Assembly (NCBI GenBank): GCA_018302815.1
Contig: JAGVZE010000007.1
Coordinates: 124,001-188,000 of the forward strand
Reading direction: 5' to 3'
DNA from: Candidatus Woesearchaeota archaeon
GTDB lineage: Archaea > Nanobdellota > Nanobdellia > Woesearchaeales > ARS49
Length of the DNA stretch: 64,000 bases
The translations under genes were made by a program, and so were the position numbers. The notes below the pieces were generated by a model. The model ran no database searches, was not told the origin of the DNA, and saw only the letters and a program-made list of their open reading frames with translations. This document shows, one piece after another, positions 34,896 to 51,217 of this stretch. Numbering within the stretch: position 1 is the first letter of the stretch; each line of letters begins with the position of its first letter.

Positions 34896-35816
34896 TTAAG
34901 CCTCATCCATGACCAATCTAGCCACATTGTTCGTCAACGTGACCATTGTCTTGAAAATCTCGGCAGTGCCAGCAGGAAGCTCTGAAGCCTCCTTTAGAAC
35001 GCCCTCGCGCTGCAAAGCGACATTGTCAGCAAGCTTCTTGTCCTTTGTGAAGTAAGCCTTCATAACATCCAAGTACGACTTTTCAACTTTTTGGAAAACA
35101 CTCTTAACTTTCTCTTTCTTCTTCTCTTTAGAAATGTATTCGACAAGCTGCTTTGCGCCATCGGCAAAATTCTCCAAGTTGATAGTCAAATAGTAGTAGC
35201 TTAGAACTTTATCGTTCGTAAGCTGGAACAACTCTGCTATCTGCTTATTCGAGAACGCGCTCTTGAGGAGCCGCATAAGCAAGAAATAAGCCCTATTGAC
35301 CTCATAATCACGAACAATAACACTCTGGCCAAGCTCTTCCTTATCAATTGCCGCTATGCTATCCTGAATCATGCTGCGAACCAACATGTCCATCCTGCGA
35401 ATAGTTTTATCGATACTAAGCTCCTTAAGATTAAGCAAATCCTTTGCCACAATGCTTTTTGCAGTGTGGTCCGCAACTTCAAGCGCCACAAAATCGTGCA
35501 ACATCTTACGGATATCTTTAGCTTTCTCCGTCAATTGATCGCCGCTGAGCGTTATAGTATTGTAATTGTTGATATACGCGCTTGTAATCTCACGCTGAAT
35601 AGTGCTGAACTCCTTGTTATCAACAGGAATTATAATCTCTTTCGCTGGAAGCTGTTCTTCAGGCTTGTTCTCAGGCGTAATCATCAACTCCTTATCGCTC
35701 TTCTCAAACAAATAAACCAAATCACCCTTTTTCAAATTATGCTTATCGAGCCATTCCTTAGGAAGCGAAATCGTATGCGAAGCCTGACCTGCCTTAACTA
35801 ATCGTCTGATTATCAT
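34896..35816 (-). CDS. PhoU-domain protein with N-terminal AbrB/SpoVT DNA-binding domain
   Basis: RRLVKAGQASHTISLPKEWLDKHNLKKGDLVYL plus helical PhoU repeats. Confidence 0.85.
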   Translation of the reverse strand: MIIRRLVKAGQASHTISLPKEWLDKHNLKKGDLVYLFEKSDKELMITPENKPEEQLPAKEIIIPVDNKEFSTIQREITSAYINNYNTITLSGDQLTEKAKDIRKMLHDFVALEVADHTAKSIVAKDLLNLKELSIDKTIRRMDMLVRSMIQDSIAAIDKEELGQSVIVRDYEVNRAYFLLMRLLKSAFSNKQIAELFQLTNDKVLSYYYLTINLENFADGAKQLVEYISKEKKKEKVKSVFQKVEKSYLDVMKAYFTKDKKLADNVALQREGVLKEASELPAGTAEIFKTMVTLTNNVARLVMDEA

Positions 35817-35876
35817 CTAAATCACCTACCTTTTTTCGGCAATTAAGCCGTACAATCGTACATTATGTGCCATAAG

Positions 35877-35887
35877 TATATATAAAT
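35877..35887. promoter_or_regulatory. TATA-like box between phoU-like gene and hairpin array
   Basis: tatatataaat. Confidence 0.4.
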
Positions 35888-35944
35888 CTTTTGACAATGA
35901 AGAATACATCAGAAAATAACGATGCTGGCGTATCACAACACAGA

Positions 35945-36172
35945 AGCAACCTACGGTTGCTAGACATCACTCAGGGCAGGTCCTCACGGACCTCCCAATT
36001 TACAATGCAACGAGATTCCAAAGAACCAAAGAAGAATGTTTGGAATCTCAAACAACACGAACCGCAGCGATCCCTGCGGTTCACTCAACAACCGCCATTC
36101 CAAAAAATTGGCGGTTCCCAATGTCCCCTACCAACCAATTGGCGCAACCCCCACCTAATTCTTGCGCCAATT
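35945..36172. ncRNA. Array of six perfect hairpins, putative structured RNA
   Basis: Stems of 7, 6, 11, 9, 8 and 11 bp at 35945-35961, 35978-35993, 36012-36049, 36059-36082, 36090-36116, 36137-36172. Confidence 0.5.
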
Positions 36173-36210
36173 ATTTATTCTCACCATTTAAACAACTCTA
36201 AAATACGAAT

Positions 36211-37314
36211 ATGAACCACATAACAAATCCCCAACTATTGGAACGCGTGGATGCATTTTTGCGAGGCATCACTGCGGAAGACAAAGTAGTGATAGTGCAC
36301 GATACAGATCCTGACGGCATATGTTCCGCAGTCATAATGGCAAAATGCATAGAAAGGCTGCGCAAACGCAAAATAGACCTGCACATTTCTCTTGACAGAA
36401 AAACGCACGGAATCAGCGCTGCCATGATTTCTTCATTCAAAAAGAAAAAAATCACAAAAATAATCACAACAGACTTTAGTTTAGAACAAGACCCTGAAAC
36501 AATCAAAAAACTGGAAAAATTCGCATCAATTCTAGTAGTTGATCATCACAAAGTCTACAATGAAATACAAAGCGACAAAACACTACTATACAAGCCGCAA
36601 TTCTTCACATCAATAGACCCGCCAAAATATTGCACGGGCAAATTAGCGTATGATGCCGCTAACAGGGTCGTGAACGCATCTGATCTCGACTGGATGACGG
36701 CGGCCGCCTGCATAGCAGACATCGCCACACAACCCTGGGAAGACTGGCTTTCACAAGTGCTTAGCAAACACAACATTCACATCACCAATTTCGATAACAG
36801 CGAACTATTCAAGAACAGAATAGGGCAAGTTGCTGCCACGATAAGCAGCACAGAAATCTACAATCAAAAACTCGTCCCAAAATGTTTTGACGCATTCTAT
36901 GTGGCAAAAGGACCTGATGACGTACTCAACTCAGTCTTTGGTAAATACAAAAAAATCATAGACAAAGAACTCTACAAACATCTTGATCTATTCGAAACAA
37001 AAGCCGAAATCTACGGCGAAACACACTTCTACGAACTCAAGTCCAAATATCGTGTCAATTCACCGCTTAGCACTATACTCGGGCTCAAATACCCAAACAG
37101 AACAATCCTGATAGTTAATACTACAAAGCCCACAATCTCGGTTAGCGCGCGAAGAAACGACAAAAATCCACCGGTAAATACTCTACTTGAAAACGCAATA
37201 AAAGGATTCAAAGACGCCAACGGCGGCGGACATGCACCAGCAGCAGGAGCCGGATTTTCCAAAAAATACTTAAAAACATTCAAACAACGAATCATTGAGG
37301 CATCACATGGCTAG
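36211..37314 (+). CDS. DHH-family phosphoesterase (RecJ-like)
   Basis: VVIVHDTDPDGICSAV, TDFS, VVDHHK, NGGGHAPAAGA motifs. Confidence 0.88.
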   Translation: MNHITNPQLLERVDAFLRGITAEDKVVIVHDTDPDGICSAVIMAKCIERLRKRKIDLHISLDRKTHGISAAMISSFKKKKITKIITTDFSLEQDPETIKKLEKFASILVVDHHKVYNEIQSDKTLLYKPQFFTSIDPPKYCTGKLAYDAANRVVNASDLDWMTAAACIADIATQPWEDWLSQVLSKHNIHITNFDNSELFKNRIGQVAATISSTEIYNQKLVPKCFDAFYVAKGPDDVLNSVFGKYKKIIDKELYKHLDLFETKAEIYGETHFYELKSKYRVNSPLSTILGLKYPNRTILIVNTTKPTISVSARRNDKNPPVNTLLENAIKGFKDANGGGHAPAAGAGFSKKYLKTFKQRIIEASHG

Positions 37315-49936: not shown

Positions 49937-51217
49937 ATGAACACCAAGGCACTCCTCGCAATCTTTTTGACACTTTTACTTATTCCGACGGTTATAGCCG
50001 ACACGCTTCCAGACCCTAACGCGGGCGGAATTTTCGGCAACAACTTCGGTGGAATCTTCGGCAATAACTTCGGAGGAGTCTTTGGAAGCAATTTCGGAGG
50101 AGTATTCAGCAATAATTTTGGCGGAATCATAAGCCCTACGCCAACTGATCCTACGCAGCCAACCTCGCCAACGCAGCCGACTTCACCTACACAGCCAACA
50201 TCGCCAACCTCTCCAACACCTACGACACCGAGCACACCCGTGCCGAACCCTCCAAACAACCCACCTACACAGCCAATACCTACACCAACACCTACACCAA
50301 CTCCAACGCCATCAAACAACAACCCAGTCATAAACGCAATAAACGACATGACTGTCTATGAGAATCAAAATCTAGCGTTCACAGCGACATTTTCTGACCC
50401 TGACGCAGACGCGCTCAATATCGATGTGCCTACGCTACCTTCAGGAATGACAGTCGTCAATAACGTAGGTTCGCTCACGTTCAGCTGGACGCCAAATTTC
50501 AACCAAGCAGGAAACTATCCGCTCACCTTGACTGTTCGCGACAACCGCGGCGGCTCTGCAAGCGAATCATTCACGATAACAGTAATCAACGTTGATAGAA
50601 ACGCCCAATGGGGCAGTCTTGACAATCAGTCAATAAAACAGGCAAGCCCTGATTGGACAGTTGTTTATCCAAATGTGACCGACTTGTGCAGCGATCCCGA
50701 CGGAGACGCATACGTATCTGTTGAATCATGGCACGACAACTTCGGCATTCTTGTATGGTTCAAAGACTTGCTCGTATACTGGCTCAATCCGTTCTTTGTA
50801 GGAACAGAAACTGTAACTCTTGGATGCAACAATGTGACGTCGAGTTTTGAACTCAACGTGACGCCACTTCAAGGAGCGGACTTTACAGACGTACACACGC
50901 CTGACGAAGGACTCTTCATCGGCACAATAGCAATACCCGATTATGCGAGCGAAGGAAGCTTTGTCCCAATAACAATCGCATACCGCAACAGCGGAGAACT
51001 CAAACTTAGAAACGTAAAAGCAGTCGCGAGCATACCTGAACTTGGCATACGCTCGCCAAACGCGCTTTTGCAGGATATGGGCCTTGGCAAGAAGAACTCG
51101 GAAACCCTCTTAATCGAGCTTCCGGAATCCGTCGAACCAGGCACCTATACGGTCAGAATAACGCTGGATAGCGGCTCAGTGCATAGAGTGGTGCACAGGG
51201 ATATCGTCGTGAACTGA
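49937..51217 (+). CDS. secreted surface protein with GGxFGNNF repeats, Pro/Thr linker and Ig/cadherin-like domain
   Basis: Signal peptide MNTKALLAIFLTLLLIPTVIA; four 8-aa repeats; SPTQPT repeats; PVINAINDMTVYENQNLAFTATFSDPDAD. Confidence 0.75.
   Translation: MNTKALLAIFLTLLLIPTVIADTLPDPNAGGIFGNNFGGIFGNNFGGVFGSNFGGVFSNNFGGIISPTPTDPTQPTSPTQPTSPTQPTSPTSPTPTTPSTPVPNPPNNPPTQPIPTPTPTPTPTPSNNNPVINAINDMTVYENQNLAFTATFSDPDADALNIDVPTLPSGMTVVNNVGSLTFSWTPNFNQAGNYPLTLTVRDNRGGSASESFTITVINVDRNAQWGSLDNQSIKQASPDWTVVYPNVTDLCSDPDGDAYVSVESWHDNFGILVWFKDLLVYWLNPFFVGTETVTLGCNNVTSSFELNVTPLQGADFTDVHTPDEGLFIGTIAIPDYASEGSFVPITIAYRNSGELKLRNVKAVASIPELGIRSPNALLQDMGLGKKNSETLLIELPESVEPGTYTVRITLDSGSVHRVVHRDIVVN
50024..50128 (+). 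repeat. 24-bp coding tandem repeats encoding GG[IV]F[GS][NS]NF
   Basis: GGIFGNNF GGIFGNNF GGVFGSNF GGVFSNNF GGI. Confidence 0.85.

Follow-up and report, generated by a model that had tools for sequence, protein, structure and literature searches.

What is a gap of 395 bp, filled with perfect hairpins and large for a gene-dense genome, doing between two genes of an uncultured woesearchaeote, a DPANN archaeon? To the best of our knowledge, little is known of the noncoding RNA of DPANN archaea, and the titles and abstracts of the open literature on Woesearchaeota noncoding RNA mention no such RNA. Here we analysed the 64,000-nucleotide stretch that holds the gap (hereafter the window) together with homologous loci in related genomes, and followed up a sequence-only reading that had described an array of six perfect hairpins. 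Judged from sequence comparison, positions 35890-36180 of the plus strand are probably a noncoding RNA region, either a stand-alone RNA ending near the last hairpin, P6, or a structured 5' leader of the recJ-like gene that follows.

The locus and its hairpin array

The gap is flanked by divergent phoU-abrB and by a recJ-like gene, on whose DHH-DHHA1 protein the RecJ-specific models scored below their cutoffs. phoU-abrB was matched in all 26 genomes of the family (in a few of them through distant paralogues only), and the two genes adjoin in the 19 family gaps that we read, which range from about 190 to 1350 bases. GGDEF-like genes, so named from their sequence, recur beside this locus (L105, L107, L110, L111, L100, L116 and L118), and in relatives some of them sit between the promoter and recJ. 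In G011 (L086) a gene between phoU and recJ is flanked by two RNA-like units, each with CTGGGNAATCCGGCA or a motif very like it and with a closing hairpin of the GGCGCG/GGTGCG type.

All six perfect inverted repeats reported by the sequence-only reading are present, as hairpins with perfect cores at 35945-36172 on the plus strand. The box that it had placed just upstream was found as TATATATAAA at 35877-35886, and 35837-35861 contains its short palindromes CGGC..GCCG and GTAC..GTAC. Contrary to that reading, some of the stems are related: AACCGC/GCGGTT occurs in both hairpin 4 and hairpin 5, and AATTGGCG is a direct repeat common to hairpin 5 and hairpin 6. The features of the locus are as follows.

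34896-35816, minus strand: phoU-abrB, encoding an AbrB/MazE-type DNA-binding domain and a PhoU domain (Pfam MazE_antitoxin and PhoU, above cutoff)
35848-35861, no strand assigned: CGTAC repeats CCGTACAATCGTAC, candidate regulator-binding sites (CGTA/TACG enrichment)
35877-35886, plus strand: TATA box TATATATAAA of the putative hairpin transcript (TATATATAAATCTTTTG conserved in relatives)
35925-35943, plus strand: conserved unpaired linker CTGGCGTATCACAACACAG (alignments; AUCAC-type motifs enriched)
35945-35961, plus strand: hairpin P4, AGCAACC-TAC-GGTTGCT, 7 bp, loop 3 (hand-delimited; pairs in six genomes with varying stem sequence)
35964-35973, plus strand: conserved unpaired linker ACATCACTCA (ATCACTCA enrichment; region present in six of seven aligned rows)
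35974-35996, plus strand: hairpin P5 in full, GGG(C)AGGTCC-TCAC-GGACCTCCC, in which GGG/CCC lengthen the core around one bulged C (RNAalifold; stem table of 14 genomes)
35978-35993, plus strand: hairpin P5 core, 6 bp, loop 4 (inverted repeat)
36012-36049, plus strand: hairpin 3, 11 bp, loop 16 (genome-specific, inside an insertion)
36059-36082, plus strand: hairpin 4, 9 bp, loop 6 (genome-specific; stem sequence in common with hairpin 5)
36090-36116, plus strand: hairpin 5, 8 bp, loop 11 (genome-specific; stem sequence in common with P6)
36117-36136, plus strand: C-rich linker, corresponding to the element ACCCCCC in relatives (ACCCC enrichment)
36137-36172, plus strand: terminal hairpin P6, 11 bp, loop 14, with loop CCCCCACCTAATTC, then a T-rich stretch (RNAalifold, compensatory pairs)
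36211-37314, plus strand: recJ-like DHH-DHHA1 protein gene, downstream of the array (Pfam DHH, DHHA1)

The claim that such a density of hairpins lies far above chance held. Counting perfect stems of 7 bp or more whose loops did not exceed 20, we found 5 that do not overlap (46 bp), against 0.19 (1.4 bp) expected and a maximum of 3 in 500 first-order Markov samples; in a comparison made within the 64-kb window, the paired length was at least twice that of the next-best 300-nt window with this region excluded. The cassette at 547-603, to which the array had been likened, resembles it loosely and has a copy of the 3' end of a tRNA gene on either side. This is a tRNA-Ile gene at 414-511 (anticodon called AAT), longer than usual and perhaps with an intron, whose 3' end TCCGGCTACCCCCATT is repeated exactly 115 bp on, at 613-628, with three small hairpins between; the whole (414-628) looks like a tRNA-end duplication or an attachment-site-like remnant.

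As RNA, the region folds better than dinucleotide shuffles on both strands, with z = -9.6 on the plus and -5.0 on the minus strand and 0 of 200 shuffles as good. Under a gentler Markov null the values were -4.8 and -3.5, and several relatives gave z near -1. The unpaired linkers of the window copy contain 9% G and 73% A+C and the stems 28% G, the G-poor linkers being confined to the plus strand. Elsewhere in the window, at 50101-50390, C is in great excess over G, 232-nt windows there having a GC skew of about -0.6.

Conservation in related genomes

Nine other genomes of the family have DNA similar to the window gap at the corresponding position, beside RecJ proteins that are only 46-63% identical. 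Conservation of the core linkers and of P5 and P6 exceeds that of the flanking RecJ protein, and the pairing persists across genera. From phoU to recJ, relatives show the same order: CGTA/TACG sites, a TATATATAAA-type box, AUCAC linkers, P4, P5, a C-run, P6, a T-rich stretch and recJ. Upstream of the TATA box, CGTA/TACG occurs in 19 of 19 homologous gaps (55 occurrences vs 7.5 shuffled). The single-stranded motifs are likewise enriched, AUCAC-type motifs numbering 21 vs 7.6 in shuffled gaps, ATCACTCA 7 vs 0.2 (7 of 18 gaps) and ACCCC 19 vs 7.1 (15 of 18 gaps).

The stems behave differently from the linkers, in that their sequence changes between relatives while pairing is kept. In seven close relatives P5 and P6 were recovered by RNAalifold; two pairs had changed on both sides, and the covariation term was small. 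In a stem table of 14 genomes P5 has 12 different 5' arms, yet 101 of 102 positions pair, as against 50% with swapped partners. Across hand-delimited P4, P5 and P6 stems, 99-100% of positions pair with their own partner and 49-57% with the partner from another genome; pairing here is partly by construction, so that these values show replacement of stem sequence and are not an unbiased test. Helices kept by compensatory change are seen both by RNAalifold (P5 and P6) and in the hand-delimited tables, and the covariation check proposed for homologues found stems that still pair while their sequence changes. The loop of P6 is C-rich in relatives. As an element spread over the order it was rejected, since matches outside the family were at about the level of a reversed control.

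The one long ORF of the gap, at 35891-36214 with TTG/ATG starts, stays open for 107 codons and overlaps the recJ start as ATGA, but it has no Shine-Dalgarno sequence, the spacing of conserved landmarks varies modulo 3 from one relative to another and stops interrupt most of their frames, so that we give almost no credence to its encoding a real protein. No reading frame was conserved across the relatives compared, among which the rows of G023 and G012 carry no weight, as the landmarks of G023 and part of those of G012 were misplaced.

Searches for known families and further copies

At the gathering threshold of Rfam 15, the window yielded only two tRNAs and nothing at the array, in keeping with the earlier remark that no known RNA family was evident; with E up to 10, there was no credible match in 11 homologous loci, nor for the pseudoknotted RNA described below in 6 loci. 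The supposition of an unknown structured RNA is thus supported by kept pairing and by the lack of an Rfam match, but conservation is limited to P4, P5 and P6, the other three hairpins being specific to this genome. Archaeal RNase P RNA (RF00373) and SRP RNA (RF01857) were rejected as candidates, neither having a match in the window; the genome's own copies lie at G000:C21:103164-103491 and G000:C26:2175-2445, respectively. A sigma-70 promoter and terminator scan was set aside as uninformative, the host being an archaeon.

No similar DNA was found elsewhere in the genome that holds the array, whose locus was the single match there. Neither was a repeated mobile element, which would have told against the earlier reading, nor a CRISPR or other mobile repeat, there being no unit repeat at the locus and no second copy in the genome. 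Phage records searched for the array and viral contigs searched through the phoU neighbour likewise returned nothing.

It may be asked whether the hairpins act as DNA, as regulator-binding palindromes or as a site of recombination or replication. RecJ-like nucleases act on single strands, and CGTAC palindromes adjoin the array. Yet the strands are asymmetric, with G-poor linkers on the plus strand only, better folding on that strand and T-runs on the plus side in relatives; the stems differ between relatives, unlike protein-binding palindromes; and the genome holds no similar DNA elsewhere. We regard a role as DNA as very improbable.

A pseudoknotted RNA that has probably left the locus

In less close members of the family, a second structured element comes first after the array promoter, an undescribed pseudoknotted RNA made up of a closing stem P1, a hairpin P2 and a stem P3 (motif CUGAG...GCUAWAYGC), in which the P2 loop pairs with P3. 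In a sequence-only MAFFT alignment of 16 genomes, 10 of its pairs show double changes, and covariation as strong as that observed arose in 0 of 500 shuffles. Four of the five pairs of the pseudoknot helix are changed on both sides, all sequences form the inner four, and the covariation is destroyed when the partner is slid by 1-3 columns. Searches with a model of this RNA gave a single copy per genome, in 16 of the 26 genomes of the family and also in two from another family; the count of 16 is of matches at E up to 0.05, and the remaining family genomes are not taken as truly lacking the RNA. The weakest family match (G013, E 0.024) and that in G012 were outside the input of the model, and the outer stem P1, which is absent from the model, is well formed in both, which supports it.

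In the clade of the window genome (G000, G008, G012, G013, G015, G017 and G023) the pseudoknotted RNA lies outside the phoU-recJ gap, the window genome's copy being at G000:C15:50787-50920 (L162, L177). In five of these genomes it has a common neighbourhood with an rpoE-like gene, whose product reads from its sequence as RNA polymerase subunit E'-like. CGTA/TACG is found upstream of the relocated RNA as well, in 7 of 7 cases (16 vs 3.8 expected). We infer a single move in the ancestor of this clade, with the P4-P6 part left beside recJ. Its direction, from the gap to elsewhere, is suggested by another family (G055, G185), in which the pseudoknotted RNA also lies at the gap, and the gap is likely the ancestral home of this RNA.

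Gain and loss of hairpins

An insertion of about 105-110 nt in the window genome, which carries hairpins 3-5 (36012-36116), is absent from relatives, and G002 has an insertion of its own with other perfect hairpins; hairpins are thus gained and lost as whole units. The stem sequence common to neighbouring hairpins suggests local duplication, and we take the three extra hairpins to be recent local gains. In G023, perfect hairpins have been added between P1 and P2 of the pseudoknotted RNA (L131/L165), the same kind of gain as in the array.

These additions would suit a decaying remnant, that is, a spacer drifting after the pseudoknotted RNA had moved, in which quasi-palindrome mutation or duplication throws up hairpins incidentally: one genome alone has three of the hairpins, which have sequence in common with their neighbours, and in G023 the other RNA has acquired hairpins too. 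Drift, however, sits poorly with core linkers, P5 and P6 that are better conserved than the RecJ protein and paired across genera, and with so large a gap in a gene-dense genome, and we consider decay improbable.

A stand-alone RNA or a leader of recJ

We return, then, to a noncoding RNA region, whose transcription the TATA box at 35877 would drive toward recJ and away from phoU-abrB. The array would consist of hairpins on a G-poor, C/A-rich single-stranded thread with conserved AUCAC and C-run motifs, and the linkers may be protein- or mRNA-binding sites that the hairpins hold open. A regulator binding the CGTAC sites probably controls it. PhoU-AbrB is the obvious candidate because it is encoded next door, and perhaps is that regulator, although this is a guess. 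P5 and P6, which carry U-runs in distant relatives, may as terminal or attenuating hairpins set how much transcript reaches recJ, although archaeal termination does not need hairpins.

It could also be that there is no independent RNA and that the array is only a long 5' leader of recJ, with hairpins and U-runs that act in cis as an attenuator or stability element. In most relatives read, a few dozen bases separate the end of P6 from the recJ start, neither the window nor these relatives show a clear recJ promoter, and the gap has remained beside recJ after the pseudoknotted RNA left. The window copy of recJ has no Shine-Dalgarno sequence, and recJ could have a promoter of its own overlapping the T-rich stretch. 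Two observations tell against a mere leader. The unit that ends in a P6-like hairpin in L105, where a different stem carries the similar loop CCCCCACACTCATTCT, has a further CGTAC promoter and a GGDEF-like gene downstream of it rather than recJ; and in L016, L017 and L019 long T-runs follow P6. A leader without an independent RNA is a serious possibility, which we would sooner doubt than accept.

More broadly, and tentatively, since we find the case for and against nearly balanced, the noncoding RNA region may be half of a previously undescribed system of two RNAs in Woesearchaeota. One would be the pseudoknotted RNA, single-copy and mobile, the other a string of hairpins, as an RNA or a leader, that gains and loses whole hairpins between conserved single-stranded motifs, and both would lie behind CGTAC promoters. 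A conserved locus with a common putative control site, a pseudoknotted RNA and a hairpin-swapping partner with kept linkers would make a testable new RNA family, and linkers kept while hairpins are swapped or added would be a natural case of modular RNA evolution.

Comparison with known systems

CRISPR arrays, integron attC arrays and REP/MITE elements are also series of inverted repeats, but the present array lacks unit-length direct repeats and genomic copies, its stems differ from one another and its neighbours are phoU-abrB and a recJ-like gene. With riboswitch and attenuator leaders it has in common a structured stretch with a terminal hairpin and a T-rich tail just before a gene, behind what would be a promoter. 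It differs from them in having no conserved compact aptamer, as its core consists of P4-P6 and linkers with a variable number of hairpins. The pseudoknotted RNA is the part most like a ligand pocket, yet it leaves the locus and is single-copy, unlike a typical gene-control element. Rfam families found by comparative genomics differ in that the number of hairpins in the array varies and no Rfam 15 model fits it, but resemble it as intergenic RNAs with promoter elements of their own and conserved helices with compensatory changes. Finally, small RNAs are generally known that have C-rich or anti-Shine-Dalgarno-like single strands, similar to the C-runs in the loop and linker of the array, and its AUCAC motifs resemble, as a likeness of sequence and nothing further, the 16S tail AUCACCUCC.
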